Source: a virus. Taken from it: a stretch of DNA of 22,513 nucleotides. Shown piece by piece: positions 6,269 through 22,443 of the stretch. The stretch's first letter is position 1; each line of letters starts with the position of its first letter. The notes below the pieces were generated by a model that searched no databases, was not told the origin of the DNA, and saw only the letters and a program-made list of their open reading frames with translations. The DNA is taken from positions 1 through 22,513 of IMG/VR virus record IMGVR_UViG_3300017724_000096; one strand, written 5' to 3'. A program made the position numbers and the translations under genes.

Positions 6269-8782
6269 ATGGCAGAAACTATTATTTCACCAGGTGTATT
6301 TACAAGAGAAAATGATCTTTCTTTTTTACCCGCTGGTATTGGAGCAATTGGAGCGGCAATCGTAGGACCTACAGTTAAAGGACCTGCTTTTGTACCTCAA
6401 GTAATTACAAGAGGATTTTCAGAATTTGAAAGAGTATTTGGACCACAACATCCTGAAACTTATGTCCCTTTTGCAGTTAAAGAATATTTAAGAAACGCAG
6501 GAACTGTAACAGTATTAAGAGTATTAGCTGGGGGAGGTTATAAGTATAACGATACTATGAATAATGCAATTGCAATTGTAAATAACAATCCAGCATCTCA
6601 AGCAGGAGGTCAAATTATATCAATTATTGTTCCTTCAAAAGGAAATAATTTATCTGATTTAAATGCTTCTACTTTAACTGCAGCTTCAGATGGTGATTTA
6701 ACACCAGAAGCAAATGAAAAATTAGCATTAACATTATCAGGTTCATCTATAGCTAAAACAGTTATTTCAATGTCTCTATTATCTACAGATTCTCAATATA
6801 TTGAGAGAACATTAGGTACTAGTGCAAGAAATTCAAAAATAGGAGGAAATACTTATTCAACAGGAGAGGGTAGTGCAATTTCTAACCCATCAGCTAAACC
6901 AGCTCATTTAGCAATTCATTTTAAAAATAAATCATTATCTAGTTCTCTTGATAATGAAGTATTATTACTAACAGGAAGTGTTTCAGCAAGTGATTTTACG
7001 AATTCAACATTTACAGAAGGATATGATCATGCAAAAACTCCAATGATTACCTCAGGATATACAAATTCCCCAGGTACTTCTACTGTAGATTTATTTAAAT
7101 TCCACACATTAGCAGATGGAACATCAACAAATAAAGACTTTAAAATATCTGTTACTAATTTAAATGATGGTCAATCAGATATAGATGGTGTAGAACAATA
7201 TGCAACATTTACAATACAATTAAGAGGATATGGGGATACAGATAAAGCTCCAACAATTTTAGAAGAATATACAAATGTAAATTTAAATCCAGATAGTCCA
7301 AATTATATTGCAAGACGAATTGGAGATAGATTCCAATCATATAATACAACATTAGGTAAAGTACTTACATCAGGTGATTATCCAAATATTTCACAATTTA
7401 TAAGAGTTGAAGTATCAGAAGGAGTTTCAGAAGGATCATTATCTCCTAAATTATCACCAAGAGGATTTAAAGCAGTTACAGATCCATTTGCACCATTCCA
7501 ACAAGCACCAGGTGGAACAGTATATAGATTCCCAGGAGCTACTTATCGTACTTCACAACAATTATCAGGAACTTACAATTTAAAAGCTTATTTAGGTTGG
7601 GATTTCTCAGAAAAACAAAATGAAAATTGGAACAGACCAGTAGCTAATTTAGGACAAGCAAATGTAGCATCAGGTTCTTCAAAAACAACTAATTTCTTTA
7701 ATGTTGATGATTTTAGTATGCATGCAAGTGCTTCAGCAACATTTGTTGGATCTTTAAGTGCATCAACTGATAACACAGGAACAAGTGGACCAAGAGGAAA
7801 AGATCTTAAATTCTCAGTACCATTCCAAGGAGGAAATGATGGTATGAGCCCAGCAATAATAAGACAAATAGGAGAATATGCTACAGCAACTAATGTATAT
7901 GGATTTAATTTAAGTTCAACAAGTGCTACAGGATACACAGCTTATAAAAAAGCATTAGACATATTATCAAACCAAGATGAATATGATATTAATATGTTAG
8001 CATTACCAGGTGTAGTTAAAAATTTACACGCACCAGTAACAGATGCAGCAGTTACAATGGCAGAAGATAGACAAGATACTTTCTATGTAATGGATTTATC
8101 TACAGTAAATGCATCAGTAGCTCAAGCAGTTAATGATGCAGATGGATTAGATACTAATTATGCAGCATCATATTATCCATGGGTAAAAGTGCTAGATACA
8201 TCGCGTAACAAGCCAGTATTTGTTCCTCCATCAGTTATAGTGCCTGGTGCAATAGCTGCGTCAGATCGAATTGGAGCTGAATGGTTCGCACCAGCAGGTT
8301 TAAATAGAGGTGTATTAGGAACTGTATTAGAAGCTAAAACAAGATTAAATCAAGCTGAAAGAGATGAATTATATGAAGGTAGAGTAAATCCAATCGCAAC
8401 GTTCCCAGCAACAGGAGTTTGTATTTGGGGTCAGAAAACACTTCAAGTAAGACCAACAGCATTAGATAGAATTAATGTTAGAAGATTAATGATCGCAGTT
8501 AAGAAATTTATCGCAAGTTCTTCTAAATATTTAGTATTTGAACAAAATACAATTCAAACAAGAAATAGATTCCTAAACATTGCAAATCCATTCTTAGAAT
8601 CAGTACAACAAAGACAAGGATTATTTGCATTTAGAGTAACAATGGATGAAACAAATAACACACCAGATGAAATAGATAGAAATAGATTAATTGGTGCAAT
8701 ATTTTTACAACCAGCTAAAACAGCAGAATTTATAGTACTTGATTTCAATATTCTTCCAACAGGAGCAACATTTGGAGATTAA
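6269..8782 (+). CDS. Contractile tail sheath protein (T4 gp18-like)
   Basis: An 837-residue protein that polymerises around the tail tube and contracts on infection. The N-terminus SPGVF (residues 7-11), then GAIGAAIVGPTVKGPAFVP and FSEFERVFG, is the classic start of phage sheath proteins. The C-terminal 240 residues carry the conserved inner core: the WVKVLD segment, an insertion-prone loop around LDTSRNKPVFVPPSVIV, then RINVRRLMIAVKKFI and IGAIFLQPAKTAEFIVLDF. These form the donor-strand mesh and the tube-facing domain. T4 gp18 is 659 residues, so about 180 extra residues sit in the Ser/Thr/Asn-rich middle (roughly 120-480), probably surface-exposed outer domains. The tube gene follows at once, as in other myoviruses. 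Family assignment is very secure. Confidence 0.95.
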   Translation: MAETIISPGVFTRENDLSFLPAGIGAIGAAIVGPTVKGPAFVPQVITRGFSEFERVFGPQHPETYVPFAVKEYLRNAGTVTVLRVLAGGGYKYNDTMNNAIAIVNNNPASQAGGQIISIIVPSKGNNLSDLNASTLTAASDGDLTPEANEKLALTLSGSSIAKTVISMSLLSTDSQYIERTLGTSARNSKIGGNTYSTGEGSAISNPSAKPAHLAIHFKNKSLSSSLDNEVLLLTGSVSASDFTNSTFTEGYDHAKTPMITSGYTNSPGTSTVDLFKFHTLADGTSTNKDFKISVTNLNDGQSDIDGVEQYATFTIQLRGYGDTDKAPTILEEYTNVNLNPDSPNYIARRIGDRFQSYNTTLGKVLTSGDYPNISQFIRVEVSEGVSEGSLSPKLSPRGFKAVTDPFAPFQQAPGGTVYRFPGATYRTSQQLSGTYNLKAYLGWDFSEKQNENWNRPVANLGQANVASGSSKTTNFFNVDDFSMHASASATFVGSLSASTDNTGTSGPRGKDLKFSVPFQGGNDGMSPAIIRQIGEYATATNVYGFNLSSTSATGYTAYKKALDILSNQDEYDINMLALPGVVKNLHAPVTDAAVTMAEDRQDTFYVMDLSTVNASVAQAVNDADGLDTNYAASYYPWVKVLDTSRNKPVFVPPSVIVPGAIAASDRIGAEWFAPAGLNRGVLGTVLEAKTRLNQAERDELYEGRVNPIATFPATGVCIWGQKTLQVRPTALDRINVRRLMIAVKKFIASSSKYLVFEQNTIQTRNRFLNIANPFLESVQQRQGLFAFRVTMDETNNTPDEIDRNRLIGAIFLQPAKTAEFIVLDFNILPTGATFGD

Positions 8783-8843: not shown

Positions 8844-9329
8844 ATGGCAATATTAAACACAAACGAAATGTTCTACACAGCATTCGAACCTAAAGTACAA
8901 AATAGGTTTGTAATGTTTATTGATGGAATCCCAGCATTCCTAGTTAAAAAAGTAGGACGACCAAACATATCATTTGGAGACATAACTCTTGATCACATTA
9001 ACGTGAAAAGAAAATTAAAAGGAAAAGCGGATTGGCAAGACATTACAGCTGAACTTTATGATCCAGTAACACCATCAGGTGCTCAAGCAGTAATGGAATG
9101 GGTTCGTTTGTCACACGAGTCAGTTACAGGTAGAGATGGTTATTCTGATTTCTATAAAAAAGACATTAGATTTAACGCTTTAGGTCCTGTAGGTGATGTT
9201 GTTGAAGAATGGATTTGTAAAGGAGCTTATTGTAAAGCAGCTAACTTTGGAGAATTTGATTGGAGTTCTGAAGCACCAGCAAACATCTCACTTACTATTA
9301 GAATGGATTACGCCATCTTAAATTACTAA
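8844..9329 (+). CDS. Tail tube protein (T4 gp19-like)
   Basis: A 161-residue protein, almost the length of T4 gp19 (163). Family hallmarks include the N-terminal FEPKVQNRFVMFIDGIPAFLVKKV, HINVKRKLKGKADWQDITAELYDPV, and the C-terminal region from WICKGAYCKAANFGEFDWSS to ISLTIRMDYAIL. It assembles as stacked hexamers to form the inner tube through which DNA passes, inside the sheath. It sits immediately after the sheath gene and is closed by a strong terminator, so sheath and tube form a unit. Its codons are less T-rich than those of the fibre genes, consistent with high expression (an impression, not measured). Confidence 0.94.
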   Translation: MAILNTNEMFYTAFEPKVQNRFVMFIDGIPAFLVKKVGRPNISFGDITLDHINVKRKLKGKADWQDITAELYDPVTPSGAQAVMEWVRLSHESVTGRDGYSDFYKKDIRFNALGPVGDVVEEWICKGAYCKAANFGEFDWSSEAPANISLTIRMDYAILNY

Positions 9330-9351
9330 TAGTAATAAATTATATAAAAAG

Positions 9352-9377
9352 AAAGCGCCTAATTTGGCGCTTTTTTT
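9352..9377 (+). terminator. Strong rho-independent terminator after the tail tube gene
   Basis: AAAGCGCC (9352-9359) pairs perfectly with GGCGCTTT (9366-9373) around the six-base loop TAATTT, followed by a continuing T-run to 9377. The A-run upstream and T-run downstream make it possibly bidirectional, although no gene converges on it here. Confidence 0.9.
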
Positions 9378-9428: not shown

Positions 9429-10205
9429 ATGGAACAAACACAACAAAAACCCCAATTTCCTACTGAAGAAGTAACATTACCTTCAAAAGGATTACTTTAT
9501 CCTGAAGGACATCCTTTAAAATCAGGAAAAATCACAATGAAATATATGACAGCTAGAGAAGAAGATATCTTAACTAATCAAAATTTCATTAAAAATGGCA
9601 CAGTAATTGATAAATTACTAAAATCACTTGTAGTCGATAAATTTATAAATTTAGACGACATGTTAATTGGTGATAAAAATGCTATATTAGTAGCTGCACG
9701 TATTTTAGGATATGGTAGTGAGTATACTTTTAAAGCACCTCACCCAGAAACAGGTGAAGAAGAAGAAATAACAATAGATCTAACTGAAGCTGACGATAAA
9801 CCTTTTAATGAAGAATCTTTTAATGGTGATAATGAATTTGAATTTCAATGTCCCCATTCAAAAGTATTACTTACATTTAAACTTTTAACTCAAGGTGATG
9901 AGAAAAAAATTGAAAATGAGATAAAAGGACTTAAAAAAATAAGTAAACTTAATACAGCAAATTTAACTACACGTCTTAAACATTTTATTACTTCAGTTAA
10001 TGGTGATAGAGATATTAAAACAATTAGAGATTTTGTAGATAATCAATTTTTAGCACGAGATTCAAGAGCTTTTAGGGATTATGCTAAAGAAATTATGCCA
10101 GATATAAATTTAAAATTTGATTTGCAATTTAATGATGGGACAGTTGCAGAAGATATAATGCTTCCCATTAGCATTAACTTTTTTTGGCCTGACGCCTCAG
10201 TATAG
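9429..10205 (+). CDS. Baseplate hub/tail assembly chaperone, T4 gp26-like
   Basis: A 258-residue protein matching the T4 baseplate protein (gp26-like) pattern: VTLPSKGLLYP at residues 15-25, MKYMTAREEDILTN at 37-50, GDKNAILVAARILGYGSEY at 81-99, and an acidic middle with FQCPHSK. T4 gp26 is 208 residues. The frame ends FFWPDASV shortly after AAC TTT TTT TGG. The +1 frame beyond this T-run continues for 84 codons with gp51-like sequence. The position between tube and tape measure is that of tail assembly chaperone pairs (lambda G/GT and equivalents), which are often linked by programmed frameshifting. I infer two products: 258 residues, and a minor fusion of about 336. Confidence 0.8.
   Translation: MEQTQQKPQFPTEEVTLPSKGLLYPEGHPLKSGKITMKYMTAREEDILTNQNFIKNGTVIDKLLKSLVVDKFINLDDMLIGDKNAILVAARILGYGSEYTFKAPHPETGEEEEITIDLTEADDKPFNEESFNGDNEFEFQCPHSKVLLTFKLLTQGDEKKIENEIKGLKKISKLNTANLTTRLKHFITSVNGDRDIKTIRDFVDNQFLARDSRAFRDYAKEIMPDINLKFDLQFNDGTVAEDIMLPISINFFWPDASV
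10176..10187 (+). promoter_or_regulatory. Probable programmed ribosomal frameshift site (T7 run)
   Basis: In the zero frame the codons read AAC TTT TTT TGG. A Phe tRNA on the second UUU (10182-10184) can re-pair perfectly one base downstream (10183-10185). It would then read GGC at 10186 and enter the gp51-like frame, a +1 shift; a -2 shift reaches the same frame. The zero frame stops at 10203-10205. A one-base homopolymer sequencing error is the competing explanation. Confidence 0.6.
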
Positions 10206-10440
10206 GGTAAACCTATTCGACCAAATACATGATCTGGTGTACCATGGCGGTGGTGGATTCATACATTCAGAAGTATACAACATGCCTATTTGGTTAAGAA
10301 TATTTCACATTAATAAGATTAGTGAATGGAATAAAAAACAAAATGAAGAACTGGAAAAAGCTCAGGGCCAATCTAATATTGGAGACAATAATAAAGTAAT
10401 GGGTCCTGCTGTTAATCCTAATTCTACATTTAATTATTAA
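10186..10440 (+). CDS. gp51-like frameshift extension of the tail chaperone gene
   Basis: An 84-codon frame, +1 relative to the gp26-like gene, open from 10159 to the TAA at 10438. From 10186 it begins GLTPQYRVNLFDQIHDLVYHGGGGF, followed by VYNMPIWLRIFHINKISEW and a Lys/Glu/Gln-rich helix. This pattern is that of the small gp51-like baseplate hub assembly proteins of T4-like phages. No ATG exists before the MPIWLR methionine, and the earliest standard alternative start is GTG at 10237, which would discard the conserved-looking GLTPQYR segment. That favours synthesis as a C-terminal extension by frameshift rather than independent initiation. A separate GTG-initiated 67-residue product cannot be excluded. 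Confidence 0.68.
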   Translation, partial: GLTPQYRVNLFDQIHDLVYHGGGGFIHSEVYNMPIWLRIFHINKISEWNKKQNEELEKAQGQSNIGDNNKVMGPAVNPNSTFNY

Positions 10441-10444
10441 AAAC

Positions 10445-10475
10445 ATAAGGGTATCGCAAGATACCTTTATCTTTT
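10445..10475 (+). terminator. Rho-independent terminator with GCAA tetraloop
   Basis: AAGGGTATC (10447-10455) pairs with GATACCTTT (10460-10468), with one G-U pair, around a stable GNRA-type GCAA loop. Flanking bases extend the stem by two more pairs, and CTTTTT follows at 10471-10476. It ends the chaperone unit just before the tape measure promoter. Confidence 0.85.
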
Positions 10476-13248: not shown

Positions 13249-13818
13249 ATGGGATTAAAAGAATTAAAATCAAATTTAGACCTAGTACAAGGAGAAGGAT
13301 CAGTAGGAGGTATGGCTGATCTTACTGTACCTAATTTCCAACTTGGAAAAGAAGAAGCCTCACAAAAACATATAGACAGTCTACAAGCAGTACCAGGAGG
13401 AGATAGTAATTCACCTCATCAAGATATGGATGGTCAACCTGGGCCTCAATTTCAAAGAGAAAGAGATATAGCTTCACAAGCACACATAAGCTCTTTAGCT
13501 TTAGTACCAGGGGGAGATAGTAATTCAGCTTATCAAGATTTAGATGGACAACCAGGTCCACAATTTCAAAAAGATGTAGACGCAGCTACACAAGCGCATG
13601 TGGATTCATTACTATCAGTACCAGGAGGAGACAGTAATTCACCTTATCAAGATTATGACGGTAATCAACCACCAGCTTTTCAAAGATCAGTAGATGACGC
13701 TACTGCTCAATCATTAAATAGTTTATTTGCTGTACCAGGTGGTTCATCAAATTCACCATTTCAAGATAGAAATGACGGTGTAACACCACCAAAATATTTA
13801 GATAACTTACCAAGCTAA
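13249..13818 (+). CDS. Tandem-repeat virion protein (4 x 38 residues), unknown function
   Basis: A 189-residue protein not assigned to a known family. After a 29-residue leader beginning MGLKELKSNL it consists of four near-perfect 38-residue units. Each has the pattern FQ(R/K)xxxxA(S/T)xxxxxSLxxVPGGDSNSPYQDxDG, with VPGG at 48, 86, 124 and 162 and Phe of FQ at 30, 68, 106 and 144. The units are rich in Gly, Pro, Asp, Ser and Gln, have few hydrophobics and no cysteine, so they are probably extended or only locally folded. The start MGLKELKSNL resembles MGLKKLVSDL of the next gene, suggesting a common docking peptide. The gene lies four bases before a baseplate gene, so a tail or baseplate linker role is inferred. 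Confidence 0.72.
   Translation: MGLKELKSNLDLVQGEGSVGGMADLTVPNFQLGKEEASQKHIDSLQAVPGGDSNSPHQDMDGQPGPQFQRERDIASQAHISSLALVPGGDSNSAYQDLDGQPGPQFQKDVDAATQAHVDSLLSVPGGDSNSPYQDYDGNQPPAFQRSVDDATAQSLNSLFAVPGGSSNSPFQDRNDGVTPPKYLDNLPS
13336..13791 (+). repeat. In-frame tandem repeat, four units of 114 bases
   Basis: Units at 13336-13449, 13450-13563, 13564-13677 and 13678-13791. Units 1 and 2 are the most alike at DNA level (GTACCAGG(A/G)GGAGATAGT and onward); units 3 and 4 diverge more. All are the same length with no indels, so length is probably under selection. Confidence 0.85.
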
Positions 13819-16539: not shown

Positions 16540-19500
16540 ATGTCAATTTTTAAAGAATCCTTTCCTCCATACATAAAAAAACAAATAGAGCGAAGAGAAA
16601 ATATAATTGGTCAAGAAAAAAGAGATAAAGATTTTTTCACTTATACGACCAATAAACAATGTGTTGTAAGAATGTCATCAGGAGTCAACATCGAAAACAA
16701 TGACATACTAGAAGAAGGAGAATACGTAGTAGGAGTACCTGCAGCGGAGAGTATAGCCAAACAGTATATTTTAGAAGGAGGAATACCTTCAAATTTTAGT
16801 GGAAACACAGAAAGTGGTTTTACATCTACACCTAGAGGAGGTTTTGCAAAAAAAGGAGGTGTGTATGGAGACCCTGATGTAAGAGCAGACGCTAAAGATG
16901 GATTTGGTATAGTACCAATGCCTGGTATTATAGATGCTAACATAAGAACAAAATCAGCCTATGGTTCTTTAAAAACAGGTAAAGTTAAATTTATAGCTCA
17001 TAATCAACGTCAATTAGAAATTTTAGAATTACTTTATATGAGACCTGGTTATACTTTACTGTTAGAATGGCAATGGTCTCCCTTTATTGATAATGGTGGT
17101 AATACTTCTAATAAAATATATGGAGTTAAAGATTTTTTTGATAAAAATATGAGCACTCCTAGGATACAACAACAAATACATTTAAATAGAATTACATCAG
17201 GGGGAAATTATGATGCTATTATAGGATATTGTAAAAATTTTTCATATACTTTAAGAGATGATGGGGGGTATGATTGTGAAACAGAAATTATAGCAAAAGG
17301 AGAAATACTTGAATCTCTAAAAATGTCTGAAAGAAGCCAAATTAGTGGTGGAGATGCAGAAGGAAAAACTCCAATGGAAGATTTATTTGATGAAATTATA
17401 GAATGGTCAGACCAAGTAGATGAAGCTAATGATTTTAATGCAGCTGATCTAGCAAATATATCTATAGCAACACAACAAGAAGCAGAAAAATTAGTTAGAA
17501 AAACATACAATAAGGGAGCTAATCTTTTAAAATGGGTAGTAGATGGAGCAACAGACCTTGCAACATCAGCCACTACATATATAGATGATAAAACAGGAAC
17601 TAATATTTCTAAATTTAATAATACAATAAAAGCAAGTGGAGAGAACATAAACAAAAATATTGAAGGTGCAAAAGTAAGCGAAACAGATCTTTTTGCACCA
17701 GAATTAGCCATTGATATTGAAGATGTAAAAGAAGAAAATATGAGAGCTTCTTTAAAAGCAAGATTAGGATTAAGTCCAGATTTATTTCCTAGTGGAGTTG
17801 AATTATTTCCTCTTTTAATACCTAAAGATTCTAATTTTTTTAGTGGCTTAGATGATACAACTTTAGATTTTTCAGGGGGAGAAAACACATCTAGTGGGGA
17901 GGATGGTGAATCTATATCATTATCTGAATTAGATTATAATACAACTTATATAAGATGGGACGTGTTAGCATCCGTTATAAACACAGAAATAATACCTCTG
18001 CATAAAAAAACAGGAAAACCCATATTTACAATTCAAACATGCCATGTAGTTAACCAAGATACTACACCTACTATTAAACCTTTATTATATTCACGAGCAA
18101 CCCCACCTTCATTAGATAAAAAAATAGAAACAATTAATGGTAAAGCTCTAAATTGGGACTTAACAGACATATCTGTAAATCCAAGTGTTTGTTTATTACC
18201 TCATTTAATGTATGATTTTGCAGCCATAAAAGGATTAAGTAATAATATAACAAACCAAAACCAAAAGGGACAACCATGTAATGGATATTGGGCTGAGGGA
18301 GATCTAGTAGGACCAGGTACTCCTTGGTCTGGGTGGAAAATTCCAATCCAGCAAAAAATTTCAGATACTGAAAAAAGATATAATATAGGAAATATATATT
18401 TTGGAGTAGAATATTTAAGATATACCTTTAGAGACATGTATTATACAGATGAAGATGGAGTAAATCCTGATTTTAGCTTATTAAAATATTTGAAAAAGAT
18501 TTGGAATGATGTAAATCAATCAACAGGAGGTTCCCATCAATTTGAATTTAATGTAGATCATACAATGACAGATCAAGCAAGAGTAATAGACATGCAAGCA
18601 TCTGAAGAAGATCTAACAGAATCTGTACATGAATTAAAAATACAATCTCCTGATTCTATAGTAAGAGATATAGCATATAATTCTTCTATACCTAAAGCAT
18701 TAACATCTACTATAGCAATAGCAGCTCAAGCTCCTGACAGTATAGATAATTTAGATCAAGTTTCATTTGCAGCTATAAACAGAGGAATAGTAGACAGATT
18801 TACGAAAGAAGTATTAGTTTCCCAACAACCTAATCAAAAAGATATAAATGGATGGACAGCAAAATTTAATGAATGGATGAGAGATTTATATTTAGGTATA
18901 AATTATCAAGCAGGTAGTAGAGATGCAACAAAACTTGAAATAGCAGCAGATAAAACTGCAAAAACAGTAGATGCTTCAACAAAAGGCACAGCATATGAAG
19001 ATTTAGTAGATTTAGATAAACAAACAGACGAATACAATGTTGTTGATGGAAAAATACTAATAGGAAAATACCACCCAGATAATAGAACAGGGGGTGGTAT
19101 ATTATCTAATTATCAGTATGATGTATTTACAGGAAGACAAGCAAGTAAATATGATTCTGATGAAAAAAAAGTCATATCTCCTGCAAAAATATCTGAAGCT
19201 AGAGGAGCTTTAAAAGATGTACAAAAAGCCATTATGAACTTAAGTAAAGTATATGGTAATGATGGAATAGGAGAGGATGGCTTTCCTTATTATAGAGGTC
19301 AACCCTTAAAAAATCCTAAACAAAGTGTATCTTCAATTATCCCTTTAAAATTTAATGCTAAAATGGATGGTATAGGGGGTATAGTAATAGGAAATGTATT
19401 TAAACTCCCTAAAAGCAGATTACCTAAAGGATACAGAGGAAAAGATGTACATTTTATAGTAATGGGAGAAGAACAAAGTATAAAAGACCAAAATTGGACT

Positions 19501-20268
19501 ACAACAATTACAGGTCAAATAACTTTATTAGGTAAAACAGAGTCTTCTAGTGGAGATGAGGGTTTAGGATCATGGGTAAAAAATTATACAATAGATAATA
19601 TACCAGAAGTAATTTATGATCCTAATGAAGATCAAGTAGAAGAATTAGAAGGAGGACCAGGAGCAGGTAGCACAGAAGCGTTAGGGCCTACTAAAGGATT
19701 ATTTAATCCATTAGATTCAATAAGTTTTACTACTCAATATGGTCAGTTAAGAAAAATGGGTAAAGGAGCAGGATCTGAAGGGGCTGCAGGAGTATACAGA
19801 AGACATAGGGGCTGTGATTTAAAAGGTAAAACAGGAGATAAATTATATTCAATGGGAGATGGTACAGTTTCTTATGTAGACCCCCCAACAATGGAAAATT
19901 CAAAAACAGGATGTGGAGGTACTATAAAAATAAAATATGAAGGAGATGCATCAGGTATTGAATCTATGTATTGCCATTGTAGTGCTGTTTTTGTAAAAAA
20001 AGGAGAAAAAGTAACAGCAAAACAACATGTTGGTAATATGGGGGGAGAACCAGGAACCCCAGGAGCGGGTAACACAACAGGAGCCCATCTTCATTTAGCA
20101 ATAATGGCACCAGGTAGTGTAGATTGGAAAACATCAGATTTACAACTAGGTCATAGATTTGGTAAAGGGGGTAAATACACAGATAAAAGTAGTAATAAAT
20201 TAAAAGGAACAGAAGGTTTTTCAGCTAATGGGACAGTTGATCCTGCTCAATATTTAATAAAAACTTAA
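16540..20268 (+). CDS. Baseplate hub protein with C-terminal M23 peptidase domain
   Basis: A 1242-residue protein, probably the central hub/spike with a peptidoglycan-cutting domain. The hub part includes YMRPGYTLLLEWQWSPF and IIGYCKNFSYTLRDDGGYDC (about 228-247). A later part, MDGIGGIVIGNVFKLP (from residue 942) through IVMGEEQSIKDQNWTTTITGQI, resembles gp27-like hub proteins. After a Gly/Glu linker, residues 1065-1200 form an M23 (lysostaphin/LytM-type) zinc endopeptidase: H1089-RGC-D1093 and H1183-L-H1185 are the usual ligands, with H1146 in YCHC as the additional catalytic histidine. It would cleave peptide crosslinks during injection, the job of the T4 gp5 lysozyme. Translation follows the gp53-like gene after three bases, with TTAAGTTATG at the start. 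Confidence 0.87.
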   Translation: MSIFKESFPPYIKKQIERRENIIGQEKRDKDFFTYTTNKQCVVRMSSGVNIENNDILEEGEYVVGVPAAESIAKQYILEGGIPSNFSGNTESGFTSTPRGGFAKKGGVYGDPDVRADAKDGFGIVPMPGIIDANIRTKSAYGSLKTGKVKFIAHNQRQLEILELLYMRPGYTLLLEWQWSPFIDNGGNTSNKIYGVKDFFDKNMSTPRIQQQIHLNRITSGGNYDAIIGYCKNFSYTLRDDGGYDCETEIIAKGEILESLKMSERSQISGGDAEGKTPMEDLFDEIIEWSDQVDEANDFNAADLANISIATQQEAEKLVRKTYNKGANLLKWVVDGATDLATSATTYIDDKTGTNISKFNNTIKASGENINKNIEGAKVSETDLFAPELAIDIEDVKEENMRASLKARLGLSPDLFPSGVELFPLLIPKDSNFFSGLDDTTLDFSGGENTSSGEDGESISLSELDYNTTYIRWDVLASVINTEIIPLHKKTGKPIFTIQTCHVVNQDTTPTIKPLLYSRATPPSLDKKIETINGKALNWDLTDISVNPSVCLLPHLMYDFAAIKGLSNNITNQNQKGQPCNGYWAEGDLVGPGTPWSGWKIPIQQKISDTEKRYNIGNIYFGVEYLRYTFRDMYYTDEDGVNPDFSLLKYLKKIWNDVNQSTGGSHQFEFNVDHTMTDQARVIDMQASEEDLTESVHELKIQSPDSIVRDIAYNSSIPKALTSTIAIAAQAPDSIDNLDQVSFAAINRGIVDRFTKEVLVSQQPNQKDINGWTAKFNEWMRDLYLGINYQAGSRDATKLEIAADKTAKTVDASTKGTAYEDLVDLDKQTDEYNVVDGKILIGKYHPDNRTGGGILSNYQYDVFTGRQASKYDSDEKKVISPAKISEARGALKDVQKAIMNLSKVYGNDGIGEDGFPYYRGQPLKNPKQSVSSIIPLKFNAKMDGIGGIVIGNVFKLPKSRLPKGYRGKDVHFIVMGEEQSIKDQNWTTTITGQITLLGKTESSSGDEGLGSWVKNYTIDNIPEVIYDPNEDQVEELEGGPGAGSTEALGPTKGLFNPLDSISFTTQYGQLRKMGKGAGSEGAAGVYRRHRGCDLKGKTGDKLYSMGDGTVSYVDPPTMENSKTGCGGTIKIKYEGDASGIESMYCHCSAVFVKKGEKVTAKQHVGNMGGEPGTPGAGNTTGAHLHLAIMAPGSVDWKTSDLQLGHRFGKGGKYTDKSSNKLKGTEGFSANGTVDPAQYLIKT

Positions 20269-21159: not shown

Positions 21160-22443
21160 ATGTTCTATCTTATCGAAACAAAAAACCAACTAAACCAACT
21201 AGAATCAAATTTATCTTCTAGTTTAACACGCTATCTTGAATTTATTCAGGGTAATGACAACACACACCCTGCGTTAGCAGAAATAATAGCTGTGTATCTT
21301 GAAGTTGATGGTGAAGATTTTATCATACCTTTAAACCATTTAGAATGTATAAATTGGGACAAAGATGCTATTTTGAATATGCTATCAAATTATGAGTTTT
21401 GCGTTTTAGATAAAAAAGCCGCTTTACACGCGGCCCCACACATATCTTATACGGATATACAACATACAATACCTTTATTAGACCAACATACAACCCAAGC
21501 ACACCAATGGTATTATCGAAAATTCCCACATACTAAGGTAAATAAAATGATACCAATCGGAAAACACCTAGAACGCTGTAAATTAAAAACACACAGTATA
21601 TTCCAAGAGTATCGCGGGGAAATTAATGGATACTTTGACAAAATATTATTACCTGTCTTACATGAATTAGAGAAGAATGCATTAAAATTCAATGACAAGT
21701 TTGACGACTATTTTACACTAAAAAACAAAAAATTCTCCATAAAAGAAAATCATATATACGGATGGTATAATCCATACACCACAACCGGAAGACCTGTAAA
21801 TAACTTTAACGGATTAAATTTTGTAGGACTAAAACACGACAATGGAGAACGTGATTGTTTCGAACCAGACAATAACTTTTTTGTAGAAATGGATTATGAT
21901 GGCTATCATCCACGCCTAATAGGCGATATAGTTGACTACCAATTTACAGGCAACGTACACAACACACTTGCGGAAATTTACTTTAAATCCAAGAAAATTA
22001 CTCCACAACAATATAAAGAAAGTAAAACACTTACATTTAAACAGATATATGGGGGTATAGACAAGGCGAACTTACATCATCCTTTTTTCTTTAAAACACA
22101 ACAATTTATAGACATTATTTGGGAAGAATTTAATAATAAAGGAGAAATCAAATGTGGTAGTTATACTATAAGAAAGAAAGATCACCCAAAAATTCATTCT
22201 CAAAAATTATTTAATTATTATATTCAAGCTACCGAAACAGAAACCAACATTCGTAAGATAAAAATCATACAAGATTATTTAAAAACAAAGGAAACAAAAT
22301 TAGTTCTTTACATATATGATGCGTTCGTTTTTGACGTATCTAAATCAGATGGAAAACAAACATTAACGGATTTACAAAATATACTTAATGACAAATTTCC
22401 CGTGAAGTTAAAATCTGGCGCGCATTATGGGTCTTTGCAATAA
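21160..22443 (+). CDS. Short divergent family A DNA polymerase
   Basis: A 427-residue protein with Pol I-type polymerase motifs in order. TTTGRP (207-212) matches the TGR loop. Motif A is D245-Y-D-G-Y-H-P-R252, aligning with DYSQIELR. Motif B has K289, F293 and Y297-G in KTLTFKQIYGG. Motif C is YIYD387AFVFDV, aligning with VHDELVFEV. Both metal-binding aspartates (D245, D387) are kept, but the steric-gate Glu of motif A is His250 and the motif C Glu is Ala388. The first 110 residues resemble a shrunken 3'-5' exonuclease domain without a clear DxE, so proofreading is doubtful. An AAGG lies just before the ATG, unlike most genes here, and the codons look richer in C. It may begin a replication region; T4 itself uses a family B polymerase. 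Confidence 0.82.
   Translation: MFYLIETKNQLNQLESNLSSSLTRYLEFIQGNDNTHPALAEIIAVYLEVDGEDFIIPLNHLECINWDKDAILNMLSNYEFCVLDKKAALHAAPHISYTDIQHTIPLLDQHTTQAHQWYYRKFPHTKVNKMIPIGKHLERCKLKTHSIFQEYRGEINGYFDKILLPVLHELEKNALKFNDKFDDYFTLKNKKFSIKENHIYGWYNPYTTTGRPVNNFNGLNFVGLKHDNGERDCFEPDNNFFVEMDYDGYHPRLIGDIVDYQFTGNVHNTLAEIYFKSKKITPQQYKESKTLTFKQIYGGIDKANLHHPFFFKTQQFIDIIWEEFNNKGEIKCGSYTIRKKDHPKIHSQKLFNYYIQATETETNIRKIKIIQDYLKTKETKLVLYIYDAFVFDVSKSDGKQTLTDLQNILNDKFPVKLKSGAHYGSLQ

Follow-up and report, generated by a model that had tools for sequence, protein, structure and literature searches.

One gene for a gp26-like and a gp51-like tail chaperone: very probable +1 ribosomal frameshifting at a conserved slip site in T4-type phage relatives

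Most long-tailed phages possess frameshifted tail chaperones. T4 has been singled out in a major review as lacking them, an exception to otherwise widely conserved G/GT frameshifting (PMC5009743). In phage lambda two overlapping frames adjoining the tape measure gene yield the short form gpG and, by a -1 shift, the C-terminally extended form gpGT, and for the chaperone of the haloarchaeal myovirus HSTV-2 the shift is very likely +1 (PMC5009743). Listeria phage PSA, cited in an earlier note on the DNA described here as a further case of a frameshifted chaperone, does not belong to this list, as the genes with a +1 shift in this phage are cps (capsid) and tsh (tail shaft) (PMC5009743). In T4, gp26 and gp51 are encoded by two separate, diverged genes, with gp26 on the opposite strand, and no recoding is involved. 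The T4 baseplate hub depends on both proteins. T4 gp51 is essential, is absent from T4 particles and has been called a protein of unknown function (PMC3004832), which fits an assembly chaperone. The earlier note had considered recoding in a T4-like phage noteworthy in view of these separate genes, and the point is stronger than it was put, given the listing of T4 as a G/GT exception. For the slip itself, the closest described case is the RF2 gene (prfB), in which the P-site tRNA re-pairs in the +1 direction from CUU to UUU before an A-site codon starting with U (PMC10885494).

How does the present locus compare to these systems? The window, that is the whole stretch of DNA of a marine T4-type phage that was analysed (22,513 nucleotides; IMG/VR virus record IMGVR_UViG_3300017724_000096), contains a single gene that, judged by sequence comparison, very probably gives rise to gp26-like short and gp51-like long tail/baseplate chaperones through +1 ribosomal frameshifting at UUU-UUU-UGG (Table 1). 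It resembles lambda G/GT in having two overlapping frames adjoining the tape measure gene and a short and a C-terminally extended form, and differs from it in the direction of the shift, in the sequence family and in belonging to a T4-type contractile tail. The 0-frame gene closes with AAC TTT TTT TGG CCT GAC GCC TCA GTA TAG, the codons at the junction being AGC (10170), ATT (10173), AAC (10176), TTT (10179), TTT (10182) and TGG (10185), and the +1 frame is free of stops from 10159 up to the TAA at 10438-10440. The frame coordinates and the peptide GLTPQYRVNLFDQIHDLVYHG..PIWLR given in the earlier note were re-read from the sequence and are right. Since a terminator-like hairpin lies just past the +1 stop, the 0 frame and the +1 frame form one unit. 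The order tail tube, chaperone, tape measure is the same as in Flavobacterium phage immuto, in which the syntenic gene is annotated 'tail tape measure protein', and places the unit where G/GT-type chaperones are found. From gene position the tape measure protein would be the partner of the chaperone, and the gp19-like tail tube protein would be a partner of the long form.

Table 1. Features of the chaperone locus and its neighbours, in positions of the window.
Feature	Position	Strand	Basis or remark
Tail tube protein (gp19-like)	8844..9329	+	phrog_4542 tail tube, E 3.8e-28
Terminator-like hairpin 5' of the chaperone unit, 3' of the tail tube gene	9348..9377	+	
gp26-like short chaperone gene (0 frame), 258 aa	9429..10205	+	ends ISINFFWPDASV and stop, i.e. 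..NFFWPDASV and stop
Slip motif C-TTT-TTT-TGG	10178..10187	+	T-run 10179-10185 (7 T)
+1-frame extension, 84 aa post-shift	10186..10440	+	starts GLTPQYRVNLFDQIHDLVYHG; T-like domain matching gp51 C terminus
Stop TAG closing the 0-frame short product	10203..10205	+	sequence
GTG in the +1 frame	10237..10239	+	sole ATG/GTG/TTG before the conserved NMP Met
Terminator-like hairpin directly 3' of the +1-frame stop	10445..10470	+	
Putative tape measure protein gene, 903 aa	10507..13218	+	position and syntenic gene in Flavobacterium phage immuto

Further tail genes surround the locus. The large tail sheath protein (6269-8782, 837 aa) carries a long region ahead of its conserved sheath domains, which lie close to the C terminus. 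Behind the putative tape measure gene a protein of 189 residues is encoded (13249-13818) that consists of about four imperfect repeats of 36-40 residues (..QAHIDSLxxVPGGDSNSPxQDxDGQPGPQFQ..) and has no match in Pfam. A tail protein of 1242 residues (16540-20268) carries an M23 peptidase domain in its C-terminal part (E 4.9e-15) and is probably a lytic protein of the hub or the tail tip. After the tail genes a 427-aa protein (21160-22443) partially matches DNA polymerase family A with 30.0 bits, under the cut-off of 34.3.

What are the two products? The 0-frame protein belongs to the PF12322 / phrog_150 family. In a profile search it matches PF12322 (T4_baseplate) with 28.7 bits against a cut-off of 24.5 (E 1.3e-6), it matches phrog_150 (baseplate hub) with E 1.5e-11, and its AF2 model (pLDDT 93) finds T4-type baseplate hub proteins in BFVD. 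The +1 extension is related to PF20546 (DUF6760), with 23.5-23.8 bits and E 4.6e-5, under the curated membership cut-off of 27 bits. Among 58 homologous extensions, 10 hit phrog_634 (baseplate hub assembly catalyst) with a best E of 4.7e-4, and the window's own extension, searched alone against the phrogs, gave no match. Direct profile-profile alignment of the extension with T4 gp51 is weak (E 0.014, low probability), and for this reason a ranking was made with a profile built from the C termini of known gp51 proteins, none of the new extensions included; of the 4389 ORFs in these loci it places extensions at ranks 1-35. Among solved structures there was no convincing sequence match and no Foldseek match. 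The HK97 tail assembly chaperone 2ob9 was the top solved structure (VIA; Z 4.9, rmsd 6.3, 86 residues) at rank 1 of 733, a score within the noise range that is in weak agreement with a lambda-like chaperone role, and a fold search using the model of the extension alone yielded nothing significant.

In T4, gp26 and gp51 each match the entire length of PF12322 (E 9e-64 and 4e-52, respectively) and match each other in hhalign (E 3e-26), identifying them as paralogues, and gp51 comprises the PF12322 domain plus 48 further residues. Since the two proteins are paralogous and gp51 already consists of domain and extension, what the frameshift produces is not a fusion of two genes of T4, and the proposal of the earlier note that gp26 and gp51 are joined here is not supported. 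Rather, the matches equate the short form with gp26 and the long form, domain plus C-terminal extension, with gp51, and the tail-gene neighbourhood is shared as well. In a tree with long branches and without a root, gp26 and gp51 of the T4 group fall together in a single clade (100/97) that is separate from the frameshift group, which fits a duplication within the T4 lineage. In T4, a gene duplication seems to have taken the place of recoding, with gp26 as the short and gp51 as the long form.

Homologous loci were scanned for in IMG/VR, bacterial genomes and phage records. A +1 extension of 50 aa or longer is present in 115 distinct loci, and the conservation of T-run and frame offset that the earlier note had proposed to look for is kept in them, far beyond what chance would give. 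The terminal codons are TTT-TTT-TGG in 91 of the 115 loci, TTT-CTT-TGG in 8, TTT-TTT-TTC in 6 and TTT-TTT-TAC/TAT in 4. A [C/G]-TTT-(T/C)TT-T site at the gene end together with a +1 extension occurs in 109 distinct loci from metagenomes, bacterial genome bins and cultivated phages. Among the 115 loci, the cultivated phages with slip motif and +1 ORF include those of Flavobacterium, Microcystis, Bacillus (SP-15), Listeria (LIS04), Streptococcus and Rhodothermus (RM378). P-site re-pairing in the +1 direction is from UUU or CUU to UUU in 109 of 109 core loci, and from UUU to UUC in L037, L038, L040 and L065. In deeper variants (TTT-TTT-CAC in SP-15, TTC-TTT-CGT in Streptococcus GXN1 and TTT-CTA in the jumbo phage LR756508) UUU to UUC re-pairing is still possible, and at the site of LIS04, TTT-TTT-AGT, the first UUU is able to slip. 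In 101 of 109 loci a C or G precedes the run, as compared to 169 of 821 TTT codons in gene bodies (p 4e-51, a statistic that ignores shared descent); a C or G here breaks the -1 heptamer T-TTT-TTT. Whenever the second codon of the run encodes leucine it is CTT (8 of 8 distinct loci), a codon that accounts for 18% of leucine codons in the chaperone genes as compared to 60% for TTA, and on the tree CTT at the slip site calls for a minimum of three separate changes. The C terminus of the 0-frame product (FFWPD-stop) is likewise conserved among the loci, and the strict TGG-CCT-GAC following the site reflects the dual coding of WPD in the 0 frame and GLT in the +1 frame. The slip site is conserved at the frame junction, as G/GT-type chaperones require.

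Could the extension be a separate small gene that is expressed by reinitiation or coupling from the GTG at 10237 or from another weak start, with no frameshift at all? Depositors have annotated separate ORFs, in some relatives an ATG lies close to the stop (L070, L082 and L063 among them), and in related phages stop and start overlap (TAATG in LR756511; Pseudomonas Cygsa01). However, the +1 frame is under strong protein selection ahead of any conserved start. In the segment that runs from the 0-frame stop to the first conserved Met its dN/dS is 0.17 with zero stops (49 non-overlapping pairs), close to the value of 0.18 past this Met, whereas the other two frames of the same segment give 1.1 (104 stops) and 1.7 (328 stops). 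Moreover, from the opening of the +1 frame to the conserved Met, 79 of 108 loci are devoid of ATG and 28 of 108 of ATG, GTG and TTG alike. Selection upstream of the conserved Met and the existence of start-less loci together mean that translation must come in from the upstream gene; the downstream frame is under protein selection without a start of its own, as G/GT-type chaperones require. In the window, the +1 frame has no ATG upstream of the conserved NMP methionine, and the GTG is unlikely to be the true start because it sits within the conserved domain (HDL-V-YHG). A proper start for a separate gp51-like gene, which the earlier note had said would speak against a frameshift, is not conserved in the homologues. 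A separate gene would also leave the slip motif without a role, yet the motif is conserved and is lost exactly where a split gene supplies its own start. This is the case in L024, the sole near relative with complete sequence and without frame overlap (L073 and L084 end at contig ends, and L061 is a normal +1 case). In L024 a GIY-YIG homing endonuclease gene (PF01541, over cut-off; L024:4700-5800) is inserted between chaperone gene and extension, the extension starts with an ATG of its own that overlaps the stop codon of the endonuclease gene, and the junction reads TTC-TTC-TGG-CCT-GAT-TTT-TAA, with the slip site lost and the peptide FFWPDF retained. From this junction it appears that, where the frameshift is no longer needed, the nucleotides drift and the C terminus of the short form stays. 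Altogether, translation of the extension as a gene of its own is improbable.

The CTT variants and the re-pairing of the P-site tRNA to UUY favour +1 ribosomal frameshifting over the remaining explanations as well. Transcriptional slippage, with two U inserted or one U lost on the T-run, could be imagined because 7 T, or 8 in the TTT-TTT-TTC loci, are in the range of polymerase slippage, but homologues with TTT-CTT-TGG have runs of three bases only and still keep the +1 extension, and the TTT-CTA and TTC-TTT-CGT variants (L037, L040 and L065) are also without a long run, making this mechanism very improbable. The T-run of the window would equally permit a -2 frameshift yielding NFFFGLTPQYR, the alternative that the earlier note had left standing, and phage Mu uses a -2 frameshift. 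At TTT-CTT-TGG, however, a -2 movement puts tRNA-Leu on TTC, a poor match, whereas the +1 movement is the CUU to UUU slip of the RF2 type, so that a -2 shift is hardly credible. Finally, a sequencing or assembly error in a simple in-frame fusion gene with six T could be imagined, as homopolymers are error-prone and cellular clusters do encode the fusion in frame. Such an error has next to negligible probability in view of the identical offset in more than 100 assemblies and in cultivated phage genomes and of the conserved 0-frame C terminus (FFWPD-stop). The earlier note had named six T in the reads as an observation that would refute the frameshift, and the relatives do not have six Ts. The +1 programmed frameshift at UUU-UUU-UGG in a tail chaperone gene adjoining the tape measure gene, its central proposal, is supported by the conserved site and by the selection on the +1 frame.

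On this reading, ribosomes that stay in the 0 frame would produce the gp26-like short form. In a fraction of ribosomes, peptidyl-tRNA-Phe would be positioned on UUU 10182-10184 with UGG in the A site, move by +1 and re-pair with UUU 10183-10185. GGC would then be the next codon and reading would continue to 10440, resulting in a long form of 336 aa with a C-terminal helical domain that would be the counterpart of the C terminus of T4 gp51. The slip is like that at prfB in the re-pairing of CUU or UUU to UUU before a U-starting codon and differs from it in the A-site codon, which is a sense codon here (UGG, UUC, UAC) and UGA there, and in being without an SD-like stimulator at the prfB spacing (three bases upstream). 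SD-like words just upstream of the slip site are not enriched across the loci, the mean fold z for a stimulatory RNA structure downstream is -0.5 to -1, barely past gene-body controls, and no consensus RNA fold was found among 72 ungapped sequences. In analogy to lambda gpG/gpGT, the two products would be made in uneven ratio; the short form would coat the tape measure protein, and the long form, the rarer of the two, would bring in subunits of the tube or hub.

Other relatives would make the same two forms differently. In Bacteroidota, cellular tail-like clusters contain in-frame fusions (FF-xRLT..), in which PF12322 domain and DUF6760-like extension are encoded by one ORF (L149:859-1623, L150:859-1623 and L151:961-2103). 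DUF6760 was found in 3 of 296 Bacteroidota genomes, two of the three being in-frame fusions with PF12322; the remaining one, L148, is a short ORF located close to sheath and tube genes. The marine T4-like cyanophages, with gp26 and gp51 of phrog_150 and phrog_634, have a member of the same family with an other-frame extension right behind the chaperone gene, and differ in the -1 offset, an invariant T-TTT-TTC and an ATG soon after the stop. Their gp26 genes (L154-L233, L052) end with TTT-TTC, one codon and the stop in 55 of 55 distinct genes, and a T precedes in all 55, creating an invariant heptamer T-TTT-TTC. Within the bodies of these genes TTTTTC is never used for FF, which is encoded by TTCTTT, TTTTTT or TTCTTC. 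The small gp51 is encoded in the -1 frame, which is open through the heptamer, and its ATG, without SD, is two bases past the gp26 stop codon, making coupled initiation at this ATG possible. Rhizobium and Agrobacterium phages have the same type of -1 heptamer, and in Rhizobium IC12 residues resembling RL38J1 are found ahead of the first ATG. These features suggest -1 frameshifting from gp26 into gp51 in the marine cyanophage-type and the Rhizobium/Agrobacterium phages. In the open-licence literature searched, no description of frameshifting in cyanophage-type gp26/gp51 was found, nor one of the present chaperone frameshift or of DUF6760; as only open-licence papers were covered, an earlier report elsewhere is possible.

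It is likely that the T4-type chaperone family as a whole produces short and long forms, be it by a +1 shift, by a -1 shift at T-TTT-TTC, by in-frame fusion, by split genes or by the duplication in T4, and that T4 is no exception to the G/GT principle. More than 100 variants of the +1 slip site, with an invariant -1 site as their counterpart in the sister phages, constitute a large natural data set on such sites. Moreover, gene annotation is corrected in many phage genomes in which the extension has been missed or given a false start. For the biology of these phages the finding amounts to a testable statement: gp26 would be the short and gp51 the long form of one chaperone, which the T4-type relatives would pair by +1 or -1 recoding.
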